Below, in pieces: positions 1 through 62,516 of a stretch of 62,516 bases of DNA. Source of the DNA: a virus. Numbering within the stretch: position 1 is the first letter of the stretch; every line of letters begins with the position of its first letter. The DNA lies in the IMG/VR virus record IMGVR_UViG_3300023199_000083, positions 1 through 62,516 of that record; one strand, given 5' to 3'. The position numbers and the translations under genes were made by a program. A model generated the notes under the pieces. It was not told where the DNA came from, did not search any database, and was given only the letters and a program-made list of their open reading frames with translations.

Positions 1-127
1 ACAATCAACCTGTCCGAGTCCAATCTATTCACGCTCAATACAGGGTTGGCGACTGGAACGATAACAGTCACGTTCAACGCTCCGGATGGACCGGCACAGG
101 GTTCAATTGAGGTCGATCACACGGGAA
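1..127. repeat. Left copy of 127-bp terminal direct repeat
   Basis: Bases 1-127 are identical to 62390-62516. The reading frame of the tail-fibre gene continues across the join without a break, so this is best read as the overlap left when a circular sequence was linearised. An exact length of 127 is a common k-mer size in short-read assembly, so I do not read it as a biological terminal repeat. Confidence 0.9.
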
Positions 128-2612: not shown

Positions 2613-2640
2613 GAATGGCTCAATCATCCAGGGAAAGGAC

Positions 2641-2952
2641 GGAGCAACTTGGGGGCGTGACATTTACGCTAGGAGAGGAAATGGGCTGACAGTTAACCAA
2701 ATTACCGCCGTGGTTCATGGGGCAAATGGATCGAATATTGGCTATGTATCTGGCACGGGGGCTGAAATTACTGACAATCATTTTACCAGTAACATTACAG
2801 CGATTACCTCGCGAGATCAAAAACACGGCTCAATGATCGGTAATAGTGTGATTGGCGTGATTTCTGGTAATACGTTGTTGAACGGGCCTGTCATGGGTAT
2901 CGGTGTGTCACACCAGAGCGCGCGTCACATACATGGCAATGCGATCGTTTGA
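2641..2952 (+). pseudogene. Start-less beta-helix fragment
   Basis: The frame read from about 2611 to the TGA ending at 2952 gives a typical parallel beta-helix series (NGSNIGYVSGTGAEITDNH, NSVIGVISGNTLLNG, QSARHIHGNAIV), as in tailspikes and pectate-lyase-like proteins. No ATG and no Shine-Dalgarno lies in a sensible position; the first plausible start is GTG at 2710. It directly follows the complete gene at 1194-2612. I read it as the remnant of a replaced tailspike domain, or as an 80-residue peptide from GTG. Confidence 0.45.
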
Positions 2953-3180
2953 AGAACCGCTATACAAACGGCTTTGGCATTGATGCCAGCGGTGGCGAGG
3001 CGGCGAGATCACACACGTGGACCCGGAGCGCTTGCCGTTTGCGTGGTGTTGTTTCGAGGGGTGACCGAGTCGCGACGGAAGTTGAGTATTTGGCGGCGAG
3101 TGAGTCTTGATTGGCACCTCCCCGTATTCTATGGTACAATTCCACAAGTCATTTCAGCCACTTCACACAAAGGAGCATTT
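2953..3180. other. Intergenic region before the packaging operon
   Basis: 228 bp with no convincing ORF. Its right half holds the promoter at 3111-3140 and the Shine-Dalgarno (AAAGGAG) of the gene at 3181. Nothing else is recognised. Confidence 0.5.
3111..3140 (+). promoter_or_regulatory. Putative late promoter, extended -10
   Basis: TTGGCA at 3111-3116, 18 bp spacer, TACAAT at 3135-3140 preceded by TGG (extended -10). The same TG-N-TACAATTC core occurs at 57075-57086 upstream of the lysis/fibre module. The transcript would begin about 35 bp before the ATG at 3181. Confidence 0.5.
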
Positions 3181-17467: not shown

Positions 17468-19273
17468 CTAAACGACCGCTTGATAGTCCGGCGTATTCGG
17501 CCTCTTCTGATTCGTCGGCGGCAACCCCTTGGCTATCGCCGGCAGGTCCTTGAACATCGGCGCAAGCCCGGCCGGGTACTGGTCCCCGCTCCGAACTGCC
17601 CGGTCAAGTGCATACGTGCCGTCAAAGTGTATCCCATACAGCACCGCTCTACCATCCGCCGACAGCACCGGGTCGTTCAGGACCGGCTCATGGCGCAATG
17701 GCCGAGTCGTGATCCCATTTAAGTCTGTAAACGTTTCGAATCCCGGTATTTCCGGCCATTCGTTGACCCGCTCCGCCTCAAGCGAGATATCCCGCAGCGT
17801 CATCGGCCGAAACATCTCAATTTGTACCGACTCCACGCCCGAAGCACCAGCCGCGACCGGCAGGTGGGCGATCCCGGACTTGTTCCGAAGCGTGGTCGTC
17901 ACGTCGTAGCGGAGATAGCCCGTCCCCTCGGTCCTGTTTTCGAACGGCATCGACACCTGGTAATCCAGTTCGTCCTCGTATCCCGGAACGTCTTTTCGAT
18001 CGCCCTTGGTGTCGCCCTCTTCAATCTCCTCTGTGGGGGGAAACTCAATTACCGGCCCCATCGGGCGCGAATACAGATCGAACGGACCACACGAATCTTG
18101 GTACAGCACATGCCGAAATATCCCTCGAAGACCCGCCGTGAAGAACGGAGCCACAAACGTATTGACGATTGGAAGCGGAGGATTCTCTGCGAACGTTAAC
18201 TGGTCCTCATCTCCCGCCTGCGGCGCGGTTCCGGCCCATATGGATCCGTCTGTATGCTTTATCGTTGCCGACGCATACGCAACCGTGTCATGCAGGTCTT
18301 CGCCGATCTCCGCATGTTGCACGAAATTCCGGTTGGTGAACAGGAATATCCGCGTCAGATGCAATCGCATTTCCAGAATTTGGTACGCCAACGACGCCAG
18401 TCGCGACTTCGACTCTTGGGGGTTTCCTTCCACGCGGACATTGACGGTGCTTTCCGCCAGCGCGCTGTGAGGCTGCGGAAACACAATCTTGTGCGATGCC
18501 GTCCACTTGAGCGCTGGCAGCGGTGGGTAGACGGCAACCTGCCTGTCTTCGAACGTGAAGTCCAGTGTTAGGCCATCTTCACTCTCTTCTGCGCTGTAAT
18601 TATAACGCTTAAACCCGAACGTTAATGGCGGGATGAACCATTCTTTGAAGGAGTGGACGCCCACGTCTGGACTTGCTACGCGCAAGCGGCCTCGGTATCG
18701 TCGAGTCGTGAACCAGCGTTCGTCCAGCGTCTCCGCTTGCCACATCTTTAATGACAAGATATCTGGACTCGTTCTCCCACCACCCGCGCCGCAATCCAGC
18801 GGCCTCACAAACTCAATATTAAACTGTATCCGCGCCGACTTGTCATTTACAAAATGGAGCAGTCGCGGGCTTGGCTTCGGGCCGTTGTCAATGTCCATTG
18901 ACGGACGATTTACAGAAGTGGTGCGCATTATCTTTTTTCCAGCCGCCTCCAGTACAGTGGTGCTGTTAATGCGCATCTGAAAATGGCCTTGCGGCTCACT
19001 AAGAGATGCCAGAAGGCGACTAGCCCATCCGGAGCCTTGCGAGTTCAGTGTATCGCCCACGACCCTAATCCCAAGTCGCTCATGGTCCGCCGGCTCGACT
19101 TTATTACTCGCGTAAATGATCCCATGCGCACTGAGAGTTGTTTTCAGGGCCATAGGATTCGCTTTCGATGCGTCCATGATCGGCTCTTGAACGATCGACT
19201 CGATCATTACATTGTGGATGCGCACTGTGTCGCTCGAGCTGGGTCCAGCGCGATACACGATTTCTGTTGCCAC
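17468..19273 (-). CDS. Tail protein downstream of tape measure
   Basis: 601 residues from GTG 19273 with AGAGG upstream, directly after the tape-measure stop; a longer ORF to 19441 would overlap that gene heavily. Beta-rich sequence with YRAGPSSSDTVRIHNVMIES at the N-terminus. Part of it (RINSTTVLEAAGKKIMR) is encoded by a 69-bp segment that recurs at 31770-31838, where it codes for an unrelated peptide from the other strand. Probably distal tail or baseplate. Confidence 0.65.
   Translation of the reverse strand: MATEIVYRAGPSSSDTVRIHNVMIESIVQEPIMDASKANPMALKTTLSAHGIIYASNKVEPADHERLGIRVVGDTLNSQGSGWASRLLASLSEPQGHFQMRINSTTVLEAAGKKIMRTTSVNRPSMDIDNGPKPSPRLLHFVNDKSARIQFNIEFVRPLDCGAGGGRTSPDILSLKMWQAETLDERWFTTRRYRGRLRVASPDVGVHSFKEWFIPPLTFGFKRYNYSAEESEDGLTLDFTFEDRQVAVYPPLPALKWTASHKIVFPQPHSALAESTVNVRVEGNPQESKSRLASLAYQILEMRLHLTRIFLFTNRNFVQHAEIGEDLHDTVAYASATIKHTDGSIWAGTAPQAGDEDQLTFAENPPLPIVNTFVAPFFTAGLRGIFRHVLYQDSCGPFDLYSRPMGPVIEFPPTEEIEEGDTKGDRKDVPGYEDELDYQVSMPFENRTEGTGYLRYDVTTTLRNKSGIAHLPVAAGASGVESVQIEMFRPMTLRDISLEAERVNEWPEIPGFETFTDLNGITTRPLRHEPVLNDPVLSADGRAVLYGIHFDGTYALDRAVRSGDQYPAGLAPMFKDLPAIAKGLPPTNQKRPNTPDYQAVV
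18922..18990. repeat. 69-bp repeat, copy 1
   Basis: Matches 31770-31838 in the same orientation with two A/C differences. Here it is inside the - strand tail gene, while copy 2 is coding on the + strand. Confidence 0.9.
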
Positions 19274-26027: not shown

Positions 26028-29000
26028 TTAGATCGTCCGCCCGAAGTCGCGACGCCCAAACGCCATCGAGTACGCTAAAAACGACGCGGCCAACACACCC
26101 GCCAATATGTACAGGTTCCGCCTGCCACCCACGGCATTGGCCAGCGCGTCGATGATCCCCACCTGTCTTTCGTCGCCGCTCTGCTGCATGTGCAGGATCG
26201 CATCCACGATCGCGTCCTGGTACTGGGACACGGCCGCATGGTTCCCGCGCACGATCTCGCGCTGGACATGGCTCGGCGGGATCGGCGGCTGCCAACCACC
26301 CGCCTTGGCGGTGTTCAGTATGTGCCGAACCGCGTAGTCCGCTTGCCGCACTTTATCCACCCCGGCGACCGGAGTGTGGCCAAGATCGGACGCCGCTGTC
26401 ACCAGGTCGTCCAGTCGCCCCATGTGTTCAGACAAATACTCGGCCGCGTCCAATGCCCGCTGATCGCCCGTCTCGCCCTTGGCATGGTATCCAAGCGAGT
26501 TGGCGACGTACTTGACGAATCGCTTCATCGCCACGGTATCGCCGTAGTCGCGTGCCGGGAGCCCGAACTCCGAAGCTATTTCGCTTATCCGCTCTTCTTC
26601 ATCCTGCATCTGGGCCTGTTGCTGGTCCAGTTGCTGCTGATACTCATCTAGCGTGTCTCCGGTGACGTGGCCGAAGTCCACCATCCGTTCTGACTGGACC
26701 TCTACGCCGTCCCGATTGCGCCAGAACTCCGGGCCATGCGGCGGGTAAAACACCTTCGTCCACTGGTCGTCGCCCGGCAGCACGGTCCCCGGATTCAGCC
26801 GGCCCAACTCTTGCACTAACTGCTGCTTACCACGCCCTGCTTGTGGCCGCTGCTCAGGATCTGTAGGCGGCATTTGTTCCGCCTCCATTTCAGGCCCCGG
26901 TTCCAGTCCTGGCTCCGTCGTCTCTTCTGCCGCTTTTTCCGGGAAGAAGTTTTCGACCAATGCGGTCAAGTCCTCGGCGAACTGCTGTACCGACTCCGCC
27001 TGCCGCTGTGCCTGCGCGCCCAGTTTCATCGCCTCCGCTATCGACCCGCGATCTTTATAGCCACGGTTCCAGGCCGCTTGCGCCATTTGTGCATGGCCTT
27101 CCCCTAGTTTTGATTCCATTCCGGGCCGATCGTTGTTACGCAAGTTGTCCATGACTCTATCCAGCGTGTACTGGTCGATGTCCTGGATGTTGTGCGTCCG
27201 GAGCCGAGCCGCTGCCCGAGCATCTTCCGCCGCTGTCTGTGGTTGGTCTGCTGTCTCTTCCGGATCAGGCTCCTCGCCTACTTCTGGTTCATGCTCCGGC
27301 TCTGCTTCAGCCACGGCGTCCGGCCCATCCTCTTCCGGCTCCTGGTCGGGAGGCAGTTCCTCTTCCTCCGCATCGATCGCTTCGGGAGTGCCACGAACCT
27401 GGGTAGCATCCGGTGCCCCTGCGCCTTCTATCATTGCCTTCTCTTCGTCGGAGAACTTCTCCCATTCCTCCTGTGGAATCCACTGGCCGCCGACATACGG
27501 CTTTCCGGCAAGGTATAGCGGATTGTCCGCCGTGTGGCCTTGCGGTGCGCGTCGCTGTTCGTACCGGATCGGCGATTGGGAACCGGCGCGGATAATCAAA
27601 CGCTGCTTGATGGCGGTCGCCAGCACGTACCGGTAGTGGTGCTTCATGCCCTGCCGCAACTGCTCCAGTGTGCGCTTTAATTCCTGGCTGATGTACGCCT
27701 TGGACACGCCACGCTCGGCGGCGATGTCCTTTTGTTGCTGCGGCCCTTCCTCTCGACGACGCCCAATTCCAAACGTGCGTTCTAAAAGGTCTCGCTTCTT
27801 TTCCGGCAGTTCGGACAGCAGGCCCTCCACTTGTTCCAGCGCCTCGACCGTCCCCGGGGCTTCGAACGGCTCTTGTGCATCGGGATCGGCGACGGTGCCC
27901 ATGTCCGGCGCGTCTTCTCCGGTCCCGCCGACACCACGGGCCACCCGCGTTTGCCTCGCTTCCGTGCGCAGTTCGTTCAGCATGTAGCCATTGATGTACT
28001 GTGACGCATAGGACTTAAACGGAACGCCACGGTTCGGATCGAATCGCTGGGCCGCGTCCCATAGCCCGATCATCCCGGCCGCCTCCAGCCAGTCGCGCTT
28101 CTCGCGGTCCCTGCCCGCCTTCCGGCTCGCGGCCGTGCGCACCATCGGCAAGTGTTCGTCGTACAGCTCCTGGGCGCGGTGGTACTGCTCCTCGTTCTCC
28201 ATCGCCTCTTCTACCGGATCGATCTCCGCCGGCCGAGTCTGGGGCGCCGGTCGCGGCTGGGGAGCGGGCGCCGGTTGCCGTGACTCTGGCCGAGCGGGCT
28301 GCCGTGGCGGCTCTTCACGTGGCGGCTGGGCCGGTTCCTGTTCGGCCGCTGCACCCGCCGCTGCATCTGGGGGCGTAGTAGCTGGTTTCGGATCAGTCTC
28401 TTTCCGCGGATGTAGCGGCTTCTGCCCGGTGCCGAAACTTGGCCCGGATTGGCCCTGTCCCTTCGGCGCGAACTGTCCGCCCTTGCTGCCGGGCGTCCCC
28501 TCCGGTTGGCGCGGGTGCTTGTCTTCGTCTTCTGTGCCCCAATCGAATGTGCGCTGCCTTTGTCCGGGCGCTGCGTACCGCTTCTTTCGCATCTGCTGCG
28601 GGCCGGGCTCTGGCGGCGGCTCACCGCCAGATTCACCGCCGCCAGATTCACCGCCGCCAGACTCACCGCCGGGCTCACCGACCGGAGTCTGCGGATTGAT
28701 CGGTCCGCCCGGACCCATGATCGGCCCGCCACCTTCTTCCGGGCCTGGAGGTGGCGGGTTCTCTGCCTCTTCGATCGCCATCCGGATTTGCGGATTGTAC
28801 AGAACTTCGTCGCCGTCCTGGGGAACGGACAGGCCCAGCTTGTCCATGATCTCGCTGCTTTTCAGCTTGCCGCCCATGTTCCAAAGTTGGCTGATTTCCT
28901 GCATCAAGTTCGGCGGGATACTGGTCTCGGTCTTGAGCCGGAAATAGAAGTCCGCGTTCCGATACTGCGGCATGTTGTAGTCCCGCAGCGGTGACACAAA

Positions 29001-30287
29001 CTCCCGAGTCATCGTTTCTTCTTGATTGGACGCATCGAATCGGACAATCTGCTTGAGGCTATCGTGGTGCAGTTCCGCCACGCCGGACCCGAGCCCTGTC
29101 CCGGCCGTCTTGCTCGACAATGTTTGGCCCAAGATGTATCGCGTGATCTGGTCTCCGAAGAAGTCGTCGACCAAGTGCTGCAGCGCTTGAATCCCGCCAG
29201 TGTTCGGTGGAATCTGCTCAATCGACGGCATGTTCGGCATCGCCGGATCATACGGGACCAGAATTATGTTCGTATTGGCCTGGTTCCGAGCCGCGTTCTC
29301 CATCTCTTTTTTGTATGGATCGTTTCCGGACGGGTAGTAGTAGACCGTGAATCCGATCCCGGTTCGCTCGACCACTTCGACGAGCTGGGCAAGCGTTTCT
29401 TGTTTCTGGTACCAGCTCCAGTACAGGAAGTTCCGCAGCCCGACGCCTTTGATCTGAGAGCCGGTTATCGGGTCTTCGTACTCGCCGTCTCGCACCATGT
29501 GTTTGTGAACGGTGATCTGTTTCCGCTCCCACCGCTCGAAGAACACCGCCGCGCCTTCAGGCGTGTAGGTCCACAACCGCTCGCCTGCGATCTTGTCGTC
29601 GTTCATCTTCAGAAGCGCCAGGCTGACTCGAACGCCCATCTGATCCGGGTCGAAATGCCCAGTCCCATCATCGTACCGCCAAATCAGCTTGTCTCCCGAT
29701 ATGGGCGTGTACTTGTCCACATAGATGGACCGGCGTCGATTCCGATCGATGTGGTAGGCGTACTCGTTGAACATCGCCACGCGACCGTACCAGATAGCCT
29801 CCGCAAGCCAGTTCCGGTACTGCGTAAAGTAGGGCGTCCGCTTGACGATCTTGGTTAGCGTATTCGCTGCCTCGACCAGTTCAGGGTCCTTTTCATCTTC
29901 CGGCTCGATGGACCAGTCGAGAAGTGCCACCATGCGCATACGGGCTTCGAGCGGCCCTTCGATCATAATGTCATTGCGCATCATGGCCGCGTTGGAGCGG
30001 CTGTGTCGGATCGCCTCGTCCGAGTTCCGATAGGTCTTGGCCAGCGTGCTGGTCAGGCCGGAGAACGTCATAATGTGCGGGACAGGAGGTCGTCCGGCAC
30101 CGGGCGGGATATCGTCGGTCACGCCGGTAGACGGGTCCCACGGCCGACTCGCTGCTTCGAGTTGACGGCGGTACCGAATCGGCGCACGGTCGCCCAGGTT
30201 GTACGTCCTGCCACCTGCGCGGAATCCGCCCGGATCATCGACCACGAAGGTATTATCCACCAGTGGCCGGGCTATTTGATCGGTCAT
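26028..30287 (-). CDS. Portal protein fused to a sigma70-like domain and a C-terminal membrane helix
   Basis: 1419 residues in one uninterrupted frame, nearly three times a normal portal. Residues 1-510 are a Mu gp29/DUF935-type portal (RYILGQTLSSKTAGTGLGSG). A Gly/Pro/Glu linker (510-690, with GSKGGQFAPKG) follows. Residues 700-785 match sigma region 2 (WLEAAGMIGLWDAAQRFDPN, RGVPFKSYASQYINGYML) and 815-880 region 4 (LSELPEKKRDLLERTFGIG; DIAAERGVSKAYISQELKRT). An acidic linker, helical segments and a membrane helix (LYILAGVLAASFLAYSMAFG) end the protein. Portal parts form the DNA channel of the head; the sigma part has no known role there. Confidence 0.82.
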   Translation of the reverse strand: MTDQIARPLVDNTFVVDDPGGFRAGGRTYNLGDRAPIRYRRQLEAASRPWDPSTGVTDDIPPGAGRPPVPHIMTFSGLTSTLAKTYRNSDEAIRHSRSNAAMMRNDIMIEGPLEARMRMVALLDWSIEPEDEKDPELVEAANTLTKIVKRTPYFTQYRNWLAEAIWYGRVAMFNEYAYHIDRNRRRSIYVDKYTPISGDKLIWRYDDGTGHFDPDQMGVRVSLALLKMNDDKIAGERLWTYTPEGAAVFFERWERKQITVHKHMVRDGEYEDPITGSQIKGVGLRNFLYWSWYQKQETLAQLVEVVERTGIGFTVYYYPSGNDPYKKEMENAARNQANTNIILVPYDPAMPNMPSIEQIPPNTGGIQALQHLVDDFFGDQITRYILGQTLSSKTAGTGLGSGVAELHHDSLKQIVRFDASNQEETMTREFVSPLRDYNMPQYRNADFYFRLKTETSIPPNLMQEISQLWNMGGKLKSSEIMDKLGLSVPQDGDEVLYNPQIRMAIEEAENPPPPGPEEGGGPIMGPGGPINPQTPVGEPGGESGGGESGGGESGGEPPPEPGPQQMRKKRYAAPGQRQRTFDWGTEDEDKHPRQPEGTPGSKGGQFAPKGQGQSGPSFGTGQKPLHPRKETDPKPATTPPDAAAGAAAEQEPAQPPREEPPRQPARPESRQPAPAPQPRPAPQTRPAEIDPVEEAMENEEQYHRAQELYDEHLPMVRTAASRKAGRDREKRDWLEAAGMIGLWDAAQRFDPNRGVPFKSYASQYINGYMLNELRTEARQTRVARGVGGTGEDAPDMGTVADPDAQEPFEAPGTVEALEQVEGLLSELPEKKRDLLERTFGIGRRREEGPQQQKDIAAERGVSKAYISQELKRTLEQLRQGMKHHYRYVLATAIKQRLIIRAGSQSPIRYEQRRAPQGHTADNPLYLAGKPYVGGQWIPQEEWEKFSDEEKAMIEGAGAPDATQVRGTPEAIDAEEEELPPDQEPEEDGPDAVAEAEPEHEPEVGEEPDPEETADQPQTAAEDARAAARLRTHNIQDIDQYTLDRVMDNLRNNDRPGMESKLGEGHAQMAQAAWNRGYKDRGSIAEAMKLGAQAQRQAESVQQFAEDLTALVENFFPEKAAEETTEPGLEPGPEMEAEQMPPTDPEQRPQAGRGKQQLVQELGRLNPGTVLPGDDQWTKVFYPPHGPEFWRNRDGVEVQSERMVDFGHVTGDTLDEYQQQLDQQQAQMQDEEERISEIASEFGLPARDYGDTVAMKRFVKYVANSLGYHAKGETGDQRALDAAEYLSEHMGRLDDLVTAASDLGHTPVAGVDKVRQADYAVRHILNTAKAGGWQPPIPPSHVQREIVRGNHAAVSQYQDAIVDAILHMQQSGDERQVGIIDALANAVGGRRNLYILAGVLAASFLAYSMAFGRRDFGRTI
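27648..28190 (-). other. Sigma70-like regions 2 and 4 inside the portal gene
   Basis: Codons 700-880. Region 2 contains the core-binding and -10-melting helix pattern (AAGMIGLWDAAQRFDP then F-SYASQYINGYMLNELR). Region 4 has the LPEKKRDLLERTFG hinge and a helix-turn-helix with recognition helix SKAYISQELKRTLEQL. Regions 1.1 and 3 are not evident; a short acidic linker joins the two. Confidence 0.85.
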
Positions 30288-31766: not shown

Positions 31767-32097
31767 GTCTGCGCATTATCTTTTTTCCAGCCGACTCCAG
31801 TACAGTGGTGCTGTTAATGCGCATCTGAAACTGGCCTTAATGAAGGCCGCCGAGCATGAAGGGCTGGCCCTGATCCAGAACGAGCTGTGGTACACGCCCG
31901 AGCAATGGAGCAAGGCCCTGTTCGCCAGGATCATCACGGTTTCGCCTTCAAGTGGCACGACCAGCACGTTCGCGTTCCATTACTACATCCACGATCTAGT
32001 TCTGGCCGGGTCGCTGCGCATCACCGTCGAAGAGCCCGATGATTCTACAGTTCGGATGGAAGTTCATTGGAGCGTCAATGCGGCGTGGCTGAATTGA
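31741..32097 (+). CDS. Hypothetical protein containing 69-bp repeat
   Basis: 118 residues from ATG 31741 (ASILSLIESAHYLFSSRLQY; AAEHEGLALIQNELWYTPEQ; FAFHYYIHDLVLAGSLRITV). Codons 10-33 are the second copy of a 69-bp segment from the - strand tail gene. Apart from that it reads as one coherent protein. Function unknown. Confidence 0.55.
   Translation: MASILSLIESAHYLFSSRLQYSGAVNAHLKLALMKAAEHEGLALIQNELWYTPEQWSKALFARIITVSPSSGTTSTFAFHYYIHDLVLAGSLRITVEEPDDSTVRMEVHWSVNAAWLN
31770..31838. repeat. 69-bp repeat, copy 2
   Basis: Same sequence as 18922-18990 except for C to A and A to C at two positions. Coding on the + strand here. Confidence 0.9.
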
Positions 32098-38238: not shown

Positions 38239-38328
38239 GCGGGGCGCGGGTCGGTTTGGCGGCGAACGCTAGCCGGCGAGCTGATCGACGATCGATATCA
38301 CGGCACCGTTTCGGTCGAGTGATTTTTG

Positions 38329-38356
38329 TTAACCGACCCGGCCCAGCGGTTATATT
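38329..38356 (+). promoter_or_regulatory. Promoter with duplicated leader
   Basis: TTAACC at 38329-38334, 16 bp, TATATT at 38351-38356, then a leader GACAACAACACCATTTT also present at 44374-44390. Ribosome site AGGGGAAGAAG before the ATG at 38396. Confidence 0.7.
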
Positions 38357-38395
38357 AGGGTAGACAACAACACCATTTTACAGGGGAAGAAGACG

Positions 38396-38941
38396 ATGAC
38401 CGACATTTATTTTCAGGCCGACGATTTTTCTACGGTATCCCTCGACGGGGGATACCGGATGTGGCGACGCAACGAGGGCCAGGTCGCGTCATTTGGCGGC
38501 TACCACGCCCGCGGCAAGATCGTGGGCGGCGAGCATTGGACCGGCCGCGACATCGCGACCGGCGGCATGGGCAACAGCGGTGTGCGGGTGATCGTTCCGG
38601 TGAGCCGCGAGGCTCGCGCGCTCGTGCGGATGCACGTCACCGAGTGCTGGGTCAATCGGTACGGCATCTCGTACAGAGAGTCCGATGCCTTGTACGCGCA
38701 CCGCGGCCCGTACAAATACGAGCTGATCGCGGACATCTGCGCCGCGATCAATGACGAGGCGTGCCACGATGCGTTCTTGCGATTCCCCGGCGTTGGGCCG
38801 GGACTGCACCACGACTGGTGCGCTCGATGGGGCGACGTGGTTGCCCCATATCTTACCCGTTCATGGCCCCGCAACGAGGCCTTGATTGAGGCGGTGAATC
38901 ACGTGATTCGCGCAACGTCGCGTGAGTTCCAGTCCGCCTAA
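38396..38941 (+). CDS. Hypothetical protein with own promoter
   Basis: 181 residues (TDIYFQADDFSTVSLDGGYR; ARALVRMHVTECWVNRYGIS; LTRSWPRNEALIEAVNHVIR). It has the promoter and leader of the 38329 site and ends at attC b. No recognised domain; probably an early phage protein. Confidence 0.65.
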   Translation: MTDIYFQADDFSTVSLDGGYRMWRRNEGQVASFGGYHARGKIVGGEHWTGRDIATGGMGNSGVRVIVPVSREARALVRMHVTECWVNRYGISYRESDALYAHRGPYKYELIADICAAINDEACHDAFLRFPGVGPGLHHDWCARWGDVVAPYLTRSWPRNEALIEAVNHVIRATSREFQSA

Positions 38942-39044
38942 CGCTTGGGATCAACGGGCACCGACGAAAAAGGTTTGAACTACGGAAGATTCATGGAACT
39001 ACAAAACAACGCCACCGGTGCTCCGTTGCATCCCATTGTTACTA
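38937..39044 (+). repeat. attC site b
   Basis: R'' CCTAACG, arms GGGATCAACGGGCACCG and CGGTGCTCCGTTGCATCCC, R' GTTACTA. One extrahelical T and C. Confidence 0.8.
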
Positions 39045-39712
39045 TGCCGTTCGCCCCGTATTACGACGAGGACGGGATTACGATCTACAACGCGGATTGC
39101 CGGAAAGTGCTGCCGTGGCTGGCGAGGGTTGACGTATTGCTGACCGATCCACCATACGGCATCGGTGCAGCGTCCGAGACGTTTACGCGCAAAGGAAAAC
39201 AGACCGGAAAATCGTTGGCGGTGAGTGGCGTGAATTACGAGCCAAGCAAATGGGACAGCGAACCGCCACCGCGTTGGTTTCTCGATGCCGCGCAAGAGTG
39301 TGCGGAAACGTCGATACTGTGGGGCGGGAATTATTACGGGTTGCCGTCGTCGTCGTGTTGGTTGGTGTGGGACAAGGACAACGGCGAAAACCTGTACGCG
39401 GATTGCGAGTTGGCGTGGACGAACATGCAGCGGGCGGTGCGGAAATTTAAGTGGAAGTGGCACGGCATGTTGCAGGAGAACATGGGCGACAAGAAAGAGC
39501 ATCGAGTTCACCCGACGCAAAAGCCGTTGGCGTTGATGCGGTGGTGTTTGTCGTTGGTTCCAGATGCGGAAACAGTGTTAGACCCGTTCGCGGGCAGCGG
39601 CACCACGTTGGTGGCCGCAAGGTTAGAAGGCCGCAAGGCTATTGGGATCGAGATCAGCGAGAAGTATTGCGAGTCGGCGGCAAACCGGCTGGCACAACGG
39701 ACGTTGTTCTAG
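39044..39712 (+). CDS. Cassette ORF: beta-class DNA methyltransferase
   Basis: 222 residues; the ATG is the last bases of the R' box of attC b (GTTACTATGCC). Motif IV DPPYG is near the N-terminus (VLLTDPPYGIGAAS) and motif I DPFAGSGTTLVAARLEGRKA near the C-terminus, the order of beta-class N4-cytosine or N6-adenine enzymes. HRVHPTQKPLALMRW is typical. Could protect phage DNA from restriction. Target site unknown. Confidence 0.85.
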   Translation: MPFAPYYDEDGITIYNADCRKVLPWLARVDVLLTDPPYGIGAASETFTRKGKQTGKSLAVSGVNYEPSKWDSEPPPRWFLDAAQECAETSILWGGNYYGLPSSSCWLVWDKDNGENLYADCELAWTNMQRAVRKFKWKWHGMLQENMGDKKEHRVHPTQKPLALMRWCLSLVPDAETVLDPFAGSGTTLVAARLEGRKAIGIEISEKYCESAANRLAQRTLF

Positions 39713-39717
39713 GTCAT

Positions 39718-39809
39718 GGTAACGCTGGCCGTCACCGGGCGGCGGGAGAAAATTATGACTACAAAAAAAACGCAGCTACCGCCGCTCCGTGTTCACGCAA
39801 TTGTTATGC
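39718..39809 (+). repeat. attC site c
   Basis: R'' GTAACGC, arms CACCGGGCGGCGG and CCGCCGCTCCGTG, R' GTTATGC whose ATG starts the next gene. Confidence 0.8.
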
Positions 39810-40126
39810 GCCCCGGTCCCGGCTGGAAACACGTTACAGGGCCAGTGTGGGACCACGTAAGCGGAGTGCGATTGCACATGAGCGGACTGGTTCGGTTGCC
39901 GGATGGCAACACTGTGTCGGCCAACCAGTGTCCGCAATCGAAGTCCGCCGACCGTGCCGTGCGAATTGCCGGAAGCCGTCGCCGTGGACTGATGGTGTGG
40001 GCGCTGTGGTGCCTCGATCATCGTTGCAAGTTTGACGAGGTGTACTATGGCCATCAGTGCAATGTCTGTGGATTGTTTTTCGCGCACGGCTGCGCCCCGT
40101 GGGATGCCGTGCCTGAGTACGCATAA
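39806..40126 (+). CDS. Cassette ORF: hypothetical Cys-containing protein
   Basis: 106 residues from the ATG in R' of attC c; an in-frame ATG at 39755 lies in the attC loop. LHMSGLVRLPDGNTVSANQC, then CLDHRCKFDEVYYGHQCNVC and a final HGCAPW suggest a metal-bound fold. Function unknown. Confidence 0.55.
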   Translation: MRPGPGWKHVTGPVWDHVSGVRLHMSGLVRLPDGNTVSANQCPQSKSADRAVRIAGSRRRGLMVWALWCLDHRCKFDEVYYGHQCNVCGLFFAHGCAPWDAVPEYA

Positions 40127-40210
40127 CGCCTAAATTCACCGGGCCGCCCCCGGTGATCGTTGAATTGAGAACCCGCGCCGGGGGCGGCCCGGTGCAATTT
40201 TTGGTTATCC
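40121..40210 (+). repeat. attC site d
   Basis: R'' GCATAAC, arms TTCACCGGGCCGCCCCCGG and CCGGGGGCGGCCCGGTGCAA, which pair perfectly with one extrahelical C; R' GTTATCC. The strongest hairpin of the set. Confidence 0.9.
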
Positions 40211-40237
40211 GCTGTTTGCGGGGCCGCGAAAGGAAAG

Positions 40238-40528
40238 ATGGACATGTTTATCGCGTATCAGAAGTGGCAAAATCCGAGCTACATGAGTGGGCCGCGCTAC
40301 TCGCGCCGAGTTTACGGCACAGGAGAGACGGAGCAAGAAGCGCTTTTTTTCGCGACCCACTACCGGCGCAATGGTGAGTGGTGGACGTATGGGTCTGGGA
40401 GTGGACACCCCAACGCCTCAGACTTGAGCGTCGAGGAAGTGGACGACGACGAAGTGGACGACGACGAAGTGGACGTCGAGGAAGTGGACGACTACGACTA
40501 CGACGACGAAGTGGACGACTACGAATGA
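40238..40528 (+). CDS. Cassette ORF: protein with acidic repeats
   Basis: 96 residues. Folded N-terminus (FIAYQKWQNPSYMSGPRYSR, then EQEALFFATHYRR) and a C-terminal run of E-V-D-D-D repeats encoded at 40432-40525. Acidic tails like this occur in DNA-mimic and chaperone-binding proteins, but no specific family is visible. Confidence 0.6.
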   Translation: MDMFIAYQKWQNPSYMSGPRYSRRVYGTGETEQEALFFATHYRRNGEWWTYGSGSGHPNASDLSVEEVDDDEVDDDEVDVEEVDDYDYDDEVDDYE

Positions 40529-40590
40529 TCCGCCATTTTTCCGTTGCCGTGTCCCGTGTCTTCGGATGCGGGGCGCGGCGCGGTTTGGCG

Positions 40591-40680
40591 GATAACGCTA
40601 CCCGTAACCGGGCCGCGAGGGTTGAGCCGACCACGCGAGAACGCCCGCAATCGCGGCTCCGGTGCAATTTTTTGTTATGC
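40591..40680 (+). repeat. attC site e
   Basis: R'' GATAACG, arms CGTAACCGGGCCGCG and CGCGGCTCCGGTGCAAT, R' GTTATGC providing the ATG at 40677. Confidence 0.85.
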
Positions 40681-41183
40681 GGAATGGGTTTGCAGGTCAC
40701 GAAAACACAACGGCCAACCATCACGATTGGATTACGCCGCGCCACATCGTTGAAGCGTTGGGGCCGTTTAATCTGGACCCGTGCCAATCGTTGAATCAAC
40801 CGTGGAAGTGTGCCGAAAGTGGATTTACGGTCAATGATGATGGGTTGTCGAAATTGTGGCGGGGCGTTGTGTGGATGAATCCACCATACGGCAGGGCGAT
40901 CGAGAAATGGATGCGACGGCTTGCCGAGCACGGGAACGGAATCGGGTTGATGTTTGCGAGAACCGATACGCGGTGGTTTCAGGATCACTGCCAGCATCAC
41001 GCGGGCATGCTGTTCCTGCGTGGTCGTGTTCGGTTTCACGATGGAAACGGCAACCAGTTCGACAGGAAGGGCGGCGGGGCGTGTGCAACGTCGCCAAGTG
41101 TGTTGGTCGCGTTCGGTGACGAGTGCGGGCAACGATTGATTGCTTGCGGTTTGGACGGCTTACGGGTCGTGCCTTCCGCATAA
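40677..41183 (+). CDS. Cassette ORF: N6-adenine DNA methyltransferase (phage Dam-like)
   Basis: 168 residues from the ATG in R' of attC e. DWITPRHIVEALGPFNLDPC, then VVWMNPPYGRAIEKWMRRLA is the pattern of the phage DNA N-6-adenine-methyltransferase family (PF05869-like) with catalytic NPPYG. LMFARTDTRWFQDHCQHHAG follows. Likely methylates phage DNA; target unknown. Confidence 0.82.
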   Translation: MRNGFAGHENTTANHHDWITPRHIVEALGPFNLDPCQSLNQPWKCAESGFTVNDDGLSKLWRGVVWMNPPYGRAIEKWMRRLAEHGNGIGLMFARTDTRWFQDHCQHHAGMLFLRGRVRFHDGNGNQFDRKGGGACATSPSVLVAFGDECGQRLIACGLDGLRVVPSA

Positions 41184-41269
41184 CGCTACCCGTAACCGGG
41201 CGGCGACGAGAAACATTGATTTGCGATTCACGCGGCCATCGCCGCTCCGTGTGCATCGGGTTGTTATAC
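41178..41269 (+). repeat. attC site f
   Basis: R'' GCATAAC, arms CCCGTAACCGGGCGGCG and CGCCGCTCCGTGTGCATCGG, R' GTTATAC. The left arm is nearly the same as in site e. Confidence 0.85.
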
Positions 41270-41293
41270 GGCGGCGGATCTTGGGAGATGAAA

Positions 41294-41512
41294 ATGAGTC
41301 AGTACTATCACGCTGGCGCGATGGACGAAAATAACGATGTGCTGTGGAGCGATCATACCCGCCGTTCCGCGGCGGCAGCGGAACGGGAAGCGTTAGAGAT
41401 GGCCCGCAAAACTGGCAGGAGAGCAATAGTGGAAACGTGGGACCGCTTGCACGGGCTACGCCCAGGAGACGCCAATGCGGTCAATGATGCGTACATGGTT
41501 GAGTCCGTATAA
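41294..41512 (+). CDS. Cassette ORF: small hypothetical protein
   Basis: 72 residues from ATG 41294 (GGGAG seven bases upstream). SQYYHAGAMDENNDVLWSD then EREALEMARKTGRRAIVETW, a small alpha/beta fold. Function unknown. Confidence 0.55.
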   Translation: MSQYYHAGAMDENNDVLWSDHTRRSAAAAEREALEMARKTGRRAIVETWDRLHGLRPGDANAVNDAYMVESV

Positions 41513-41615
41513 CGTCAGCGATCAGCGGGGCCGGGGAGCAACCAAAGAGGTAAACCATGCGTGAAGATTCAGAACAGCCGGAAGATTTCGGCTCCGTTGC
41601 ATCGCATTGTTCGTC
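41507..41615 (+). repeat. attC site g
   Basis: R'' GTATAAC, arms GCGATCAGCGGGGCCG and CGGCTCCGTTGCATCGC, R' GTTCGTC. The loop holds GAGGTAAACC and the ATG at 41557. Confidence 0.85.
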
Positions 41616-41796
41616 GGCTCAATCTGTGCAGCGATGTCGCATACAGTCGGACACGCGATACGGTGCGGTTCACCGTCTCGGGCGGTTGGGGACCGAGACA
41701 GACTGCGGATTGAATATAAGCGACGGTGGCTGGTGGGTTTTGGGCAATGAATTAAAACACGCAGTTACATGTCGAGCATGCTTGAAAGTTCGATGA
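41557..41796 (+). CDS. Cassette ORF starting in attC loop
   Basis: 79 residues from ATG 41557, which with its GAGGT site lies between the two arms of attC g. The frame passes L' and R' into VQRCRIQSDTRYGAVHRLG and ends GNELKHAVTCRACLKVR. Function unknown. Confidence 0.5.
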   Translation: MREDSEQPEDFGSVASHCSSAQSVQRCRIQSDTRYGAVHRLGRLGTETDCGLNISDGGWWVLGNELKHAVTCRACLKVR

Positions 41797-41897
41797 ACGT
41801 CAAGGATAACCGAGCGGAGATTAAACGTGGAAAACCAAGAGACTCAAAGGGCAACCGAGACGGACAATTCCGCTTCGGTTCATCCGTTTGTTATCTG
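41793..41897 (+). repeat. attC site h
   Basis: R'' GATGAAC, arms GGATAACCGAGCGG and CCGCTTCGGTTCATCC, R' GTTATCT; one extrahelical T and one C. Confidence 0.82.
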
Positions 41898-42021
41898 GCA
41901 ATGTCGTTGCGGCTGGATGGTGGAAGATGTCTGTTACCAACAGGCACGAATAGATTTCGAATGTCCGAAATGCCACGATCGCAAGTTCAGCGAATTTCTG
42001 CGTCGAAATTTAGCCAGATAA
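41827..42021 (+). CDS. Cassette ORF: zinc-ribbon protein starting in attC loop
   Basis: 64 residues from GTG 41827 in the loop of attC h. CRCGWMVEDVCYQQARIDFE then CPKCHDRKFSEF gives two CxxC pairs typical of zinc ribbons. Function unknown. Confidence 0.5.
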   Translation: MENQETQRATETDNSASVHPFVIWQCRCGWMVEDVCYQQARIDFECPKCHDRKFSEFLRRNLAR

Positions 42022-42113
42022 CGGTTTGATTAACCGGCTCGATGGGCGAGCCGGACGTTGACTTACTACAAAACCTGACCGCCCATCGAGTCCGGTTCAA
42101 TCAATTGTTCGCA
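42016..42113 (+). repeat. attC site i
   Basis: R'' AGATAAC, arms GATTAACCGGCTCGATGGGC and GCCCATCGAGTCCGGTTCAA pair for 20 bases with a T and a C extrahelical; R' GTTCGCA. Confidence 0.9.
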
Positions 42114-42121
42114 GGTGAATC

Positions 42122-42442
42122 ATGGTTGACGCAGCCACGAAAAAACGAGTTACGCAACAGCACGTAGACGCGATCGCAGCAAATTCCGGCCCGGTATATG
42201 GCATCCGCTTGATTCGCAGTTTGCCGATCGGCACATCAGGAATGACGCAGGCGATGCCGGGGCGTGATGATCTTGCGAAAGTTCGTGACGTCAGCGAGAG
42301 AACGGCAGCCGGTTATGAGGTGCTGTTGAGCCACTATCGTCAGCAGCAAGATGAGGTCAAGCGATTGACGGCGTTGATACGCAATGTCATTGCAGGCCGG
42401 TGGAGCGTGACAGATCTACAGGAAGCAATCGGGGACGTGTAG
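42122..42442 (+). CDS. Cassette ORF: hypothetical helical protein
   Basis: 106 residues from ATG 42122, nine bases after attC i. TKKRVTQQHVDAIAANSGPV then ERTAAGYEVLLSHYRQQQDE, mostly helical. Function unknown. Confidence 0.55.
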   Translation: MVDAATKKRVTQQHVDAIAANSGPVYGIRLIRSLPIGTSGMTQAMPGRDDLAKVRDVSERTAAGYEVLLSHYRQQQDEVKRLTALIRNVIAGRWSVTDLQEAIGDV

Positions 42443-42607
42443 TTCTTGCGAACAAGAAGTATACAGGCGTCTGTATAAAACGGTGGATTGATATGGATAA
42501 CGACCAAGTTGACCGGGCCGATTGCTAAGGAGAAAAGGTGAACAGTAAAAAAATCTTTGACAGTTCGGGTGAGCCGGCCAGAAATTAACAATCGAAGGGA
42601 AACGAAA

Positions 42608-42838
42608 ATGACGACCGCAACGAAAATTTACCGAGGGATGATCGAGACGCCCGCATTGCCCCGACTGCGCGAAATCGCCAAGGAGTGCGGCGGCGAGGTC
42701 GAGGAGATGCGCGATTTCACGAACGTCTGGCCAAACCGCAATACCGATCCTGGTACGCGACACCGACGATTAGGCCGCACCCTGGTGGCGCAGGGCTGGG
42801 ACGGCAACGTGCTGTACGGTGTGACCTGCTGGGATTGA
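42608..42838 (+). CDS. Hypothetical small protein
   Basis: 76 residues, GAAGGGAAACG upstream of ATG. TATKIYRGMIETPALPRLRE and EMRDFTNVWPNRNTDPGTRH. A half attC-like element lies upstream near 42497-42523 but its partner is missing. Function unknown. Confidence 0.5.
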   Translation: MTTATKIYRGMIETPALPRLREIAKECGGEVEEMRDFTNVWPNRNTDPGTRHRRLGRTLVAQGWDGNVLYGVTCWD

Positions 42839-42849
42839 GGAGCCGAGAC

Positions 42850-43044
42850 GTGGCGAAGAAAAAGCGAGGACGAGGCCGGCCGGCGACGGGCAAGACACCC
42901 GTCCGCCAGTTGGGCCGGATCGACGATGAGAAGTGGAGATTGATCGTCCGCGCGGCGGAACTGTGCGGGCAGTCGATCACCGAGTTTTGTATGGAAACGC
43001 TGGTCAGACGTGCCAAGCGTGTCATCCGTGACCGTGACGGATAA
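42850..43044 (+). CDS. Ribbon-helix-helix-like protein
   Basis: 64 residues from GTG 42850. Basic start (AKKKRGRGRPATGKTPVRQL) then DDEKWRLIVRAAELCGQSIT, EFCMETLVRRAKRV, like DUF1778 or CopG/RHH DNA-binding antitoxins. No toxin partner is seen next to it; it may act as a regulator. Confidence 0.55.
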   Translation: MAKKKRGRGRPATGKTPVRQLGRIDDEKWRLIVRAAELCGQSITEFCMETLVRRAKRVIRDRDG

Positions 43045-43130
43045 CGCTTGGGATAACCGAGTGGCGACGAAAGATTTTACCAGTGGATTGACGCGGACTT
43101 CGCGGCTCCGTGTTCACCGCTTTGTTATGC
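43039..43130 (+). repeat. attC site j
   Basis: R'' GGATAAC, arms GGGATAACCGAGTGGCG and CGCGGCTCCGTGTTCACCGC, R' GTTATGC. The arms pair imperfectly in the outer part. Confidence 0.75.
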
Positions 43131-43148
43131 GGCGAATGGAGTGATCTC

Positions 43149-43385
43149 ATGACCCCGAATTGCATCCTCTTCGTGCGAGACGGGCTACTCTCGTTTCGTA
43201 GGAACACTCAGACGCTTCCGCAGGGCGCTGTGCCCCTCGAATACGATTGCACAAATCTGGCACACCGCGAGGTACGTAGAGTCGCGGAAGATTGGAACTG
43301 GGAGTGGTGTGGTAACTCCTACCCCGCACGTCTGCCGATCGCCCCCGATACATGCGAGAGGGCGGTTGGCGTCGATACCATGTAG
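43149..43385 (+). CDS. Cassette ORF: hypothetical protein
   Basis: 78 residues from ATG 43149 with GGAGTGAT upstream. TPNCILFVRDGLLSFRRNTQ then EVRRVAEDWNWEWCGNSYPA. No known domain. Confidence 0.5.
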   Translation: MTPNCILFVRDGLLSFRRNTQTLPQGAVPLEYDCTNLAHREVRRVAEDWNWEWCGNSYPARLPIAPDTCERAVGVDTM

Positions 43386-43434
43386 AGCCACATAACTAAG
43401 ATTGGATGTTCACGAAACGGATTTCGTGAAGATC

Positions 43435-43520
43435 GCATAACGTCCGCGATAACGCGGCCGAGGGAAACTATGAGCAAATCAGAAAGCGTTGACGGCTCGC
43501 GTTCATCGCCGTTGTTATGT
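43435..43520 (+). repeat. attC site k
   Basis: R'' GCATAAC, arms GCGATAACGCGGCCG and CGGCTCGCGTTCATCGC, R' GTTATGT. Loop contains GAGGGAAACT and the ATG at 43470. Confidence 0.85.
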
Positions 43521-43955
43521 GCTGATCCCACGGATTACGTCGTCACGGTGCCGATGAATTTCACCTGCGAAGACGCGCCCGGCATGAAGGGTCTCGACGC
43601 TTGGATTGCGGAAGGTGACGCAGCAGGCGATCTAAGCAGCGGCCAAGAGTGGTGGTTCACGACCTACGGTGTGTTGCCCGTATTCGTGCCTGGATGCCGC
43701 CTCTACGTCGTGTGCGAGGATCGGTTGCGAGGTTACGCACCAATCACGCGGATCATGTTCGACGAGTCGCGTGTGAAATATGGCAAGGCCCCGCTGGCGT
43801 TCGTCCGTGAAGGTGGGGCCGTGGCCGTGACGATCGGCGAGAAGATTACCGGATTTCGGGGCTACCGTCGCCGATGGTGGGACCGTGCCGACGAGATACC
43901 GTTTCCCGATTGGAAAACGGCAGACCGAAGAAACCGTGCCCGTGGTGGCACATAA
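43470..43955 (+). CDS. Cassette ORF starting in attC loop
   Basis: 161 residues from ATG 43470. After the attC-encoded SKSESVDGSRSSPLLCADP comes a beta-rich protein (YVVTVPMNFTCEDAPGMKG; VLPVFVPGCRLYVVCEDRLR; GYAPITRIMFDESR; AVAVTIGEKITGFRGYRRRW). Resembles proteins that bind small ligands or nucleic acids, but the family is not recognised. Confidence 0.6.
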   Translation: MSKSESVDGSRSSPLLCADPTDYVVTVPMNFTCEDAPGMKGLDAWIAEGDAAGDLSSGQEWWFTTYGVLPVFVPGCRLYVVCEDRLRGYAPITRIMFDESRVKYGKAPLAFVREGGAVAVTIGEKITGFRGYRRRWWDRADEIPFPDWKTADRRNRARGGT

Positions 43956-44040
43956 CGCTTGTGATATTTCGTTGCGAGCGAACGATTAACCATTGAGAGA
44001 AAACATGAACGAGCAATCGAAATCATCACATTGTTCTACG
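43949..44040 (+). repeat. attC site l
   Basis: R'' CACATAAC, arms TGTGATATTTCGTTGCGAG and GAGCAATCGAAATCATCACA, R' GTTCTAC; loop holds GAGAGAAAAC and the ATG at 44005. Confidence 0.85.
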
Positions 44041-44229
44041 TCCCTTGCCGACGCAATGGAGACGGTGGAACTGTGGGTAGATTTATGGGCCGACGATCAG
44101 GCAGAAATCGAGGAAGTGTCACCATGCGACATTGAGGAACGTAAGGTCATTGCGGCAGTGCATGTCGTGTTGAACGCGATCAAGTCAAAGGGGGCCGTCC
44201 CCGATGTGGGTGATGGCTACCGGTTGTGA
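44005..44229 (+). CDS. Cassette ORF starting in attC loop, with 52-bp repeat
   Basis: 74 residues from ATG 44005. The segment WADDQAEIEEVSPCDIEERK is encoded by the second copy of the 52-bp repeat; the relic at 38187-38238 encodes the same residues. Acidic and helical. Function unknown. Confidence 0.5.
   Translation: MNEQSKSSHCSTSLADAMETVELWVDLWADDQAEIEEVSPCDIEERKVIAAVHVVLNAIKSKGAVPDVGDGYRL
44091..44142. repeat. 52-bp repeat, copy 2
   Basis: Identical to 38187-38238; here it is part of a full ORF. Confidence 0.9.
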
Positions 44230-44298
44230 TCTCACAAAGTTGCCGAGTCGTATTGGGACGGCCAATCGTGGCGAGAACTAACGCGACACAATCCAGCG

Positions 44299-44349
44299 GT
44301 ATAACGACTGAGATTCGGCTCGGCAGGAAGCCGAGAATCTTTGTTAACC
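44299..44349 (+). repeat. attC site m (short) or terminator
   Basis: R'' GTATAAC, short arms AGATTCGGCT and AGCCGAGAATCT, R' GTTAACC, which is also the -35 of the following promoter. The hairpin followed by TTTGTT could equally serve as a terminator for the array. Confidence 0.5.
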
Positions 44350-44371
44350 GCACCTGCCCAGCGGTTATATT
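44344..44371 (+). promoter_or_regulatory. Promoter with duplicated leader
   Basis: TTAACC at 44344-44349, 16 bp, TATATT at 44366-44371, leader matching that at 38357-38380, ribosome site AAGGGGAAACC before ATG 44409. Confidence 0.7.
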
Positions 44372-44408
44372 AGGGCAGACAACAACACCATTTTTTAAAG
44401 GGGAAACC

Positions 44409-48412: not shown

Positions 48413-48736
48413 TCAGCTCCCCTGCTGCTGGCCTTCTGGCCGCTCGGGCGGGCAGGGTGCCGCCTGATGAGTTGTTGGATCGGCGACTGTATCACATCCG
48501 TCGCCACTGTGCACTATCCCAACGGATAGTTTTTGTTTCATTTCCACAAAAACTTTTCTGGCTTTTTCGAGAAACGCTTCATCGTTCGCGTATTCCCACC
48601 CATCGGCCTTGTCATCGCGCAGCGCCTGGGCCAGAATGTCGATCCACTCATTGGACCGAGCCGACTGCATTTTATCGAGCAAGAACTGTTGCAGTTCTTC
48701 GTCAGTTGGGTCGTGGCTTTCCGGCTTGTCAATCAT
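48413..48736 (-). CDS. Hypothetical acidic protein after helicase
   Basis: 107 residues from ATG 48736, coupled to the helicase stop by TAATG. DPTDEELQQFLLDKMQSARS then EKARKVFVEMKQKLSVG, helical. Function unknown; co-transcribed with the helicase. Confidence 0.5.
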   Translation of the reverse strand: MIDKPESHDPTDEELQQFLLDKMQSARSNEWIDILAQALRDDKADGWEYANDEAFLEKARKVFVEMKQKLSVGIVHSGDGCDTVADPTTHQAAPCPPERPEGQQQGS

Positions 48737-61226: not shown

Positions 61227-62516
61227 CCACACTGACAGTTTTGGACAGCCAGACGGTGAAGCTCGATGTCACCGGAGGTCCGGGGCCGGCGGGCGTGCGC
61301 TGGCGTGGTGAGTGGGCGTCGGCCACGGAATACAGCGTCCGCGACGGGGTCCACCACGACGACTCTGCCTGGATCGCGATCGCAGCCAACACCAACAGCG
61401 AGCCGTCGGCGGCGAATGCGGATTGGGATTTGCTGGCGGCTGGCGGTGATCAGGTATTTGATATGGTATCTGAGGCCGGAACTTCAATAGGATTAACAAA
61501 AAACACGCATCAAACCAAATGGGTTAGATGTACTAGCAATAGTGATGTTACCGTTACAATAGGCAGTCAAGTTACTGAAGAATGGGATGAGTTCACTGAA
61601 ATTCGTTTAGAGCAGCGAGGCAATGGTGCTGTTACCTTAGACACTACCGGTGTCACTCTCCAGCCTGGTTCTGTAACTACTACTCAGCAGTACGATACTA
61701 TTTTCATCAAGCGCGTCGCTGATAATGTTTGGTTCGCAGCCGGAGGGCCACTTGGAATCAACTCATTAGACTCCAATGCTCTCACTGGCAATATGACTCA
61801 GTTAGTCACGGGCGAATCCGGGGTTAGCGGAAATTTCGTATCGTGGGACGCGAATGGAAATGCAGTAGATTCAAATAGCAGTGCGTGGACTTTTGCGTTA
61901 GCTGATCATAGTCACGATGCGGCATATATCACTTCTGGTACGTTTGCAGACGACTTAATTGCTGAGAGCAATGTCACGCAACATGAAGCTGCTATAGATC
62001 ATAACTCGCTTGCAAATTATCAGGTAACTGAGCATAGATCCTGGGAAACTTCTATAGCTCAAAACATCCATGTAGACAATATAGCCAGCGGAGCCGTCAC
62101 TCAGCATCAGGGTGATATCGATCACGACCAATTAACCAACTACGCAGTCGGGCAGCATCGCATAATCAATGATGCCGGCACTAGCGCTACGGAATTGTGG
62201 TCGGCCAACAAGATAAATTCTGAATTAGGCGATAAGGCTAACGACAGCGAAGTGGTGAAGCTGACTGGCGATGAGTCGATCGCCGGGGTCAAGACACTCA
62301 CTGATGAGCCTGTATTCAGCGCTGGCGTGCGGGTGCAGGGATGCGCTCGATTCGATCTTGTCACCTACATGTCAACCGGTACGACTCAAACAATCAACCT
62401 GTCCGAGTCCAATCTATTCACGCTCAATACAGGGTTGGCGACTGGAACGATAACAGTCACGTTCAACGCTCCGGATGGACCGGCACAGGGTTCAATTGAG
62501 GTCGATCACACGGGAA
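61223..62516 (+). CDS. Tail fibre protein, N-terminal part (continues at 1)
   Basis: ATG 61223, open to the window end and continuing in frame at base 1 (483 residues in all). N-terminal GGPGPAGVRWRGEWASATEY is a common attachment motif of fibres. The centre has His-rich spacer repeats (QHEAAIDHNSLANYQ; QHQGDIDHDQLTNYA) and GDESIAGVKTLTDEPVFSAG. From about 61460 to 62270 codons are AT-rich, unlike the neighbours, suggesting transfer of the central domain. Confidence 0.75.
   Translation, partial: MTTLTVLDSQTVKLDVTGGPGPAGVRWRGEWASATEYSVRDGVHHDDSAWIAIAANTNSEPSAANADWDLLAAGGDQVFDMVSEAGTSIGLTKNTHQTKWVRCTSNSDVTVTIGSQVTEEWDEFTEIRLEQRGNGAVTLDTTGVTLQPGSVTTTQQYDTIFIKRVADNVWFAAGGPLGINSLDSNALTGNMTQLVTGESGVSGNFVSWDANGNAVDSNSSAWTFALADHSHDAAYITSGTFADDLIAESNVTQHEAAIDHNSLANYQVTEHRSWETSIAQNIHVDNIASGAVTQHQGDIDHDQLTNYAVGQHRIINDAGTSATELWSANKINSELGDKANDSEVVKLTGDESIAGVKTLTDEPVFSAGVRVQGCARFDLVTYMSTGTTQTINLSESNLFTLNTGLATGTITVTFNAPDGPAQGSIEVDHTG
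62390..62516. repeat. Right copy of 127-bp terminal direct repeat
   Basis: Identical to 1-127; see the left copy. Confidence 0.9.

Follow-up and report, generated by a model that had tools for sequence, protein, structure and literature searches.

The 62,516-nucleotide viral record IMGVR_UViG_3300023199_000083, which was analysed at its full length and is referred to here as the window, contains an open reading frame (ORF), P0001 (26028..30287, minus strand), in which a Mu-type portal protein is fused in frame to a sigma-70 factor. Comparisons across related phages lead us to propose, with a probability of about two in three, that this sigma factor is carried in the virion and delivered at infection, where it would redirect host RNA polymerase.

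Architecture of the portal-sigma fusion

P0001, which was delimited by ORF calling together with Pfam and NCBIfam matches, opens with an ATG and runs along the minus strand for 1419 residues with zero internal stops. A Mu-type portal is followed by a Pro/Gly-rich linker, a sigma-70 domain, a second linker and a helical C-terminal module with a membrane helix. The portal domain (residues 1-505; 28773..30287, minus strand) is matched by the Pfam Portal_Mu profile (PF06074) at residues 101-486 (profile positions 6-336 of 336; E=1.1e-36; 127 bits against a cut-off of 23.9) and by a PHROG annotated as 'portal protein' (E=4e-18), while a PDB sequence search with this half of the protein retrieved the portal 8rka; about 80 relatives of it were found. 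These sources agree with the original prediction, made from the sequence alone, which had placed a portal at residues 1-510 and whose ranges proved accurate, although it named no strand.

The sigma-70 domain (residues 701-882; 27642..28187, minus strand) was identified by several means. Its FliA-like region 2 (residues 708-778; 27954..28166, minus strand; Pfam and PDB matches) is matched by Sigma70_r2 (PF04542; E=2.3e-11; 43.7 bits against a cut-off of 24). Region 4, a helix-turn-helix (residues 823-879; 27651..27821, minus strand), is matched by Sigma70_r4 (PF04545; E=4e-5) at 23.4 bits, a marginal score that falls 0.7 bit short of the cut-off of 24.1. The NCBIfam model TIGR02937, 'sigma-70 family RNA polymerase sigma factor', spans both regions (residues 705-880; 65.5 bits against a cut-off of 42.9; E=4e-18), as does the PHROG 'RNA polymerase sigma factor' (residues 706-883; E=6e-26), and a PDB sequence search with this half of P0001 returned FliA as the best match, together with WhiG, RpoS and SigA. 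Regions 2 and 4 thus stand in sigma-70 order, with region 2 and TIGR02937 above their cut-offs and region 4 slightly below, and the domain lacks a full region 3. An AlphaFold2 model of residues ~687-896 reached a mean predicted local distance difference test (pLDDT) score of 73, rising to ~90 in region 2, and when this model was compared with the PDB using Foldseek all of the top 50 matches were sigma factors, mostly within RNA polymerase complexes. Sequence profiles and predicted structure therefore converge on the assignment of sigma regions 2 and 4 to residues 700-785 and 815-880 that had first been proposed.

Beyond the second linker lies a conserved helical C-terminal module (residues 1228-1395; 26103..26606, minus strand), defined by comparison with relatives. 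It leads into a predicted membrane helix at residues 1392-1410 (26058..26114, minus strand; hydropathy and alignment), which is the 19-residue stretch of peak hydrophobicity in P0001 (mean Kyte-Doolittle 1.9), so that the frame does end, as had been suggested, in a C-terminal membrane helix. An AlphaFold2 model of residues 890-1419 had a pLDDT of 54, too poor for a fold search.

The chance that P0001 is an assembly join of two genes, an artefact raised alongside the original prediction, is negligible as far as assemblies can show, and we reject it. The same ORF, with 100% amino acid identity, occurs in a separate contig, IMGVR_UViG_3300023214_000214 (L002), which matches the window at 99.9% identity across the 18 kb compared yet differs from it by single-base changes and a 2.1-kb insertion; in addition, the portal fusion of a further relative, L017, aligns with P0001 end to end, C-terminal half and membrane helix included. 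The L017 fusion lacks the sigma domain, which sits in the next ORF. The insertion in L002 (L002:2975-5085, corresponding to a window position near 33,200) carries an ORF at 3056-4018, whose product resembles an insertion sequence (IS) transposase by reading of its sequence, and a second ORF.

Cargo domains and sigma factors across the phage group

Searches with the portal yielded 78 viral loci and 8 loci from genome assemblies; since all eight of these assembly loci are labelled Planctomycetota, planctomycete hosts are indicated. With the near-identical L002 excluded, portal identity to the window ranges from 55% down to 24%, and the same-frame C-terminal extension past the portal varies from 0 to 2,200 residues. 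Domains identified by Pfam within these extensions include the ADP-ribosyltransferase domain ART-PolyVal (L009 and L037), the inorganic pyrophosphatase InPase (L004, L005, L018, L019 and L020), the 'large polyvalent protein-associated domain' LPD1 (L018 and L019) and methyltransferases. One 1986-residue protein (L037:7998-13958) combines the portal with a PAPS-reductase domain, a methyltransferase and ART-PolyVal, and another (L005:7986-13205) joins it to InPase and a SNF2/strawberry-notch-type helicase. In L004, L005 and L049 the C-terminal module seen in P0001 is encoded apart from the portal, by an ORF of its own located downstream; modules therefore move between neighbouring proteins. Judged from these sequences, the portal is a chassis whose C-terminal extensions hold exchangeable cargo domains. 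When the whole of P0001 was searched by tblastn, no reference phage record covered 80% of it and, among the matches listed, all lay in the portal part.

Iyer et al. 2017 (PMC5512222) argued that polyvalent phage proteins, whose repertoire includes ART, InPase and LPD domains, are packaged and injected; they already listed portal-InPase (BcepF1.124), portal-PBECR and portal-2H fusions, and read portal and MuF fusions as injected effectors. P0001 resembles these polyvalent fusions in being a large multidomain protein with a portal at its N terminus and further domains at its C-terminal side, encoded among the genes of a head operon, and its homologues carry InPase, ART-PolyVal, LPD1 and MutS_I. 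Within P0001 itself Pfam found no match to domains of the polyvalent repertoire (ART, InPase, LPD), which are present in homologous portals and in sibling sigma-bearing proteins. Unlike the published fusions, its cargo is a sigma-70 factor, and the word 'sigma' is absent from that paper (PMC5512222). The original statement that no portal with a transcription factor domain is known is supported, in that we found no described portal with a sigma domain. It needs one correction: portal fusion proteins as such were already in print, and it is the cargo that is new.

A Sigma70_r2 profile search was then applied to the 79 viral records that possess a relative of this portal. Sigma matches were found in seven of these records, representing six lineages, and none was a free-standing gene. 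The sigma domain lies inside the portal protein in the window and L002; in a 1582-residue ORF directly after the portal, together with InPase, in L021; in a 1060-residue ORF overlapping the end of the portal gene in L017; and in a 522-residue ORF between the portal and scaffold genes in L023. In L004 and L005 it lies in ORFs of 3,235 and 3,665 residues, open at the contig ends, where several copies of ART-PolyVal occur alongside it, as do MutS_I or GNAT domains. A sigma-based control search of IMG/VR returned 48 sigma ORFs, 45 of them outside this group. These 45 measure 172-539 residues, against 522 to 3,665 for the sigma-bearing ORFs of the group, and ORFs of more than 1000 residues account for five of the six in the group versus none of the 45 controls (Fisher p ~3e-6). 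The sigma genes of six planctomycete assemblies likewise lie in ORFs of at most 647 residues, among the matches listed. On this comparison of sequences, sigma factors in the six lineages are found only inside large virion-linked proteins and not as ordinary genes.

The other phage sigma domains of the group are only 16-29% identical to that of the window, and scans for close relatives using the window and L017 sigma domains returned only those same phages. In a tree with host sigma factors the six phage sigmas do not form one clade: three or more label changes are required, a pattern suggestive of repeated recruitment. Because the phage sigmas have long branches, separate origins are probable rather than firmly established. 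Sigma matches in human-gut 'phage' records (L014-L016) turned out to be genes of bacteria on contigs lacking annotation and were for this reason retained only as outgroups.

The extensions also share a recurrent short motif, RY(A/S)...(F/W)(D/N)E..HPRD..G(K/Q)F. In non-redundant portals the extensions contain 32 occurrences of HPR, against 3.1 expected and at most 8 in any of 200 shuffles, and the portal domains contain one; for (R/K)(Y/F)(A/S)(K/R) the figures are 24 in the extensions, against 5.0 expected and at most 11 in the shuffles, and two in the portal domains. In P0001 the motif precedes the sigma domain, at residues 568-610 (RYAAPGQRQRTFDWGTEDEDKHPR...KGGQFAPKG; 28458..28586, minus strand), where it was recognised by HPR enrichment, and in L004 and L005 it directly precedes the sigma module. 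A second junction, identified by alignment, follows the sigma domain at residues 925-940 (LYLAGKPYVGGQWIPQ; 27468..27515, minus strand) and is common to protein P0009 of L017 (LAGKQFEYGQLIP). No Pfam model was reported over the HPRD..GKF motif across the portal extensions of L004, L005 and L018-L085. We infer that the junction motif is a processing site, and it may serve more generally as a signal for processing or packaging.

Genome context

Both ends of the window carry an identical 127-bp direct terminal repeat (1..127 and 62390..62516), so the window is a complete genome of ~62.4 kb, within which the Sigma70_r2 profile search found no second sigma gene. The portal gene sits among head genes. 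Upstream of it is a KTSC-domain protein, P0003 (30353..31372, minus strand; Pfam), and downstream is the major head protein, P0004 (22285..23346, minus strand; phrog_1005, E=1.8e-9), with the terminase large subunit elsewhere in the genome (5114..7123, plus strand; phrog_5653, E=6e-20). Between portal and major head protein lies P0002 (23915..25471, minus strand), a scaffold/protease candidate by virtue of its position, which is that of Mu gene I/Z. A comparison of the P0002 family with Mu and MP29 head proteases by hhalign gave no support (the probability for Mu I was near 0, with a two-sequence target), and a tblastn search of P0002 against known phages returned zero matches. The order of portal, scaffold/protease candidate and major head protein is that of phage Mu, whose portal gp29 (H) likewise belongs to PF06074; gp29 is, however, without such an extension, and the effector-type fusion of Mu is instead gp30 (MuF).

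Several further features of the genome were noted. A 69-bp direct repeat (18922-18990 and 31770-31838; 97% identical) has one copy upstream of the KTSC-portal operon and the other inside a tail-region ORF, and a 69-bp unit is repeated three times head to tail at 60077-60287 (plus strand; 93-97% identical). A duplicated 58-bp element (38322-38379 and 44337-44394, plus strand; 91% identical), with GCGGTTATATTAGGG-AGACAACAACACC, lies just upstream of two ORF starts and is a candidate promoter repeat. At 38939-44346 (plus strand) at least seven attC-like sites (TAACG...GTTA, 68-103 bp, one orientation) are interspersed between small ORFs, and in two of these ORFs DPPYG/NPPYG motifs of methyltransferases are present. 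The window genome yielded no tyrosine integrase, and by sequence the region looks like an integron cassette array without an integrase, as described on phages by Qi et al. 2023 (PMC9892861). At 48736-52545 (minus strand) a helicase (phrog_16) with LAGLIDADG/Hom_end domains is interrupted by two intein-like insertions, one of which splits the Walker A motif. A search of the window for Rfam RNAs found none.

Proposed delivery of the sigma factor and its alternatives

How might a sigma factor attached to a portal act? About twelve copies of the protein would occupy the portal vertex, and their extensions would lie within the head. Proteolytic cleavage at the RY(A/S)-x-HPR-xx-G(K/Q)F junctions, which are flexible and repeated, could release the cargo; alternatively, the cargo could be active while tethered. 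It would enter the cell with the DNA, aided by the membrane-helix module. Once delivered, the sigma factor would bind host core RNA polymerase and direct it to early phage promoters, so that early transcription could start before any phage gene is expressed. Packaging and delivery are the best-supported reading because homologous portals carry polyvalent domains of the injected class and because the sigma factors of the group occur only in such proteins.

A number of considerations weigh against this proposal. What the sequences show is the fusion, the recognisable sigma regions, the place in the head operon, the exchange of modules and the lack of free sigma genes; packaging, cleavage, delivery and activity of the sigma domain are proposed on that basis. 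A portal subunit normally stays with the capsid, and delivery would therefore need cleavage or an unusual route; for the putative cleavage at the junctions, the candidate protease P0002 has no hhalign match to Mu protease I. The sigma ORFs of L004 and L005 are not part of the portal, so that a virion location there is a further step of inference. In addition, a sigma-28-type promoter pattern is not enriched in the window (4 occurrences versus 2.4 expected), and the long branches of the phage sigmas weaken the argument for separate origins.

An alternative, which we regard as unlikely, is that the sigma factor is never delivered: the fusion would be made late in infection and would act within the cell that makes it, either linking the assembly of heads to late transcription before the portal is incorporated or working from unassembled portal. 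The gene lies in the head operon and is hence presumably expressed late, and in established cases, among them T4 gp55 and SPO1 gp28, phage sigma factors serve the expression of middle or late genes. Such a role would nevertheless leave unexplained why the sigma domains share proteins with ART, InPase and other injected-class domains, and why no member of the group encodes a free sigma factor. Nor is there a convincing internal start just ahead of the sigma domain from which a free sigma could be made; the best candidate, at residue 739, would cut region 2.

Somewhat less probable still is a delivered inhibitor or decoy, which would occupy host core RNA polymerase or bind DNA and thereby silence the host's transcription instead of initiating that of phage genes. 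In L004 and L005 the sigma domain is accompanied by ART and GNAT domains, types for which modification of host RNA polymerase is known, and the absence of a full region 3 would suit a protein of this kind. Both promoter-recognition regions are retained, however, and sigma factors of groups 3 and 4, which are active, are likewise missing parts of the primary sigma. We consider it very improbable that the module is structural or degenerate, a captured sigma domain that makes DNA or protein contacts in the head with no role in transcription. The Pro/Gly-rich linkers on either side of the domain, the marginal region 4 score in P0001 and the variability of the extensions, which are missing from some portals, would be compatible with this, but regions 2 and 4 are both recognisable in six lineages at only 16-29% identity to the window, and this speaks for selection acting on the fold of the sigma factor and on its contacts.

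If the sigma factor is delivered at infection, as we propose, it would have parallels in other phages. Virion-delivered control of transcription is known in the form of a whole polymerase (N4) and of polymerase-modifying enzymes (T4 Alt); to our knowledge, there is no known case of a virion-delivered sigma factor. The N4 virion RNA polymerase is analogous in that transcription machinery is carried in the virion and acts on the incoming genome, but in N4 the polymerase is delivered whole and as a protein of its own, whereas here the sigma factor is part of the portal and would borrow the host polymerase. T4 Alt is packaged too and adjusts host RNA polymerase upon infection, but it does so by enzymatic ADP-ribosylation and is neither a sigma factor nor a portal. 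By analogy, a delivered portal-sigma would play, as a sigma factor, the part that falls to the virion RNA polymerase in N4 or to Alt in T4. The free sigma factors of T4 (gp55), SPO1 (gp28), Bacillus phages and cyanophages share the sigma-70 fold with P0001; unlike P0001, the viral sigmas outside this group show no fusion to a virion protein as far as seen. In a search of open-licence papers we came across no account of a sigma factor within a polyvalent or injected protein of a phage. Thus, while portal fusions, polyvalent proteins, phage sigma factors and delivery in the manner of N4 and T4 Alt are already known, we have not found described a sigma factor as portal cargo, or a phage group with sigma factors solely in virion-linked giant proteins.

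More broadly, a Planctomycetota-linked phage clade may, on repeated occasions and along more than one path, have transferred its sigma factors to proteins of the virion. Infecting particles would then supply a promoter-specificity factor together with the genome, host polymerase would be reprogrammed ahead of the transcription of any phage gene, and early phage promoters need not suit host sigma factors; for this wider proposal we judge the odds to be even. If true, virion delivery of a sigma factor would add a third answer, and a cheaper one, to the first-promoter problem, it would predict phage early promoters that are ignored by host sigma factors, and it would make the portal a general cargo platform with exchangeable modules.

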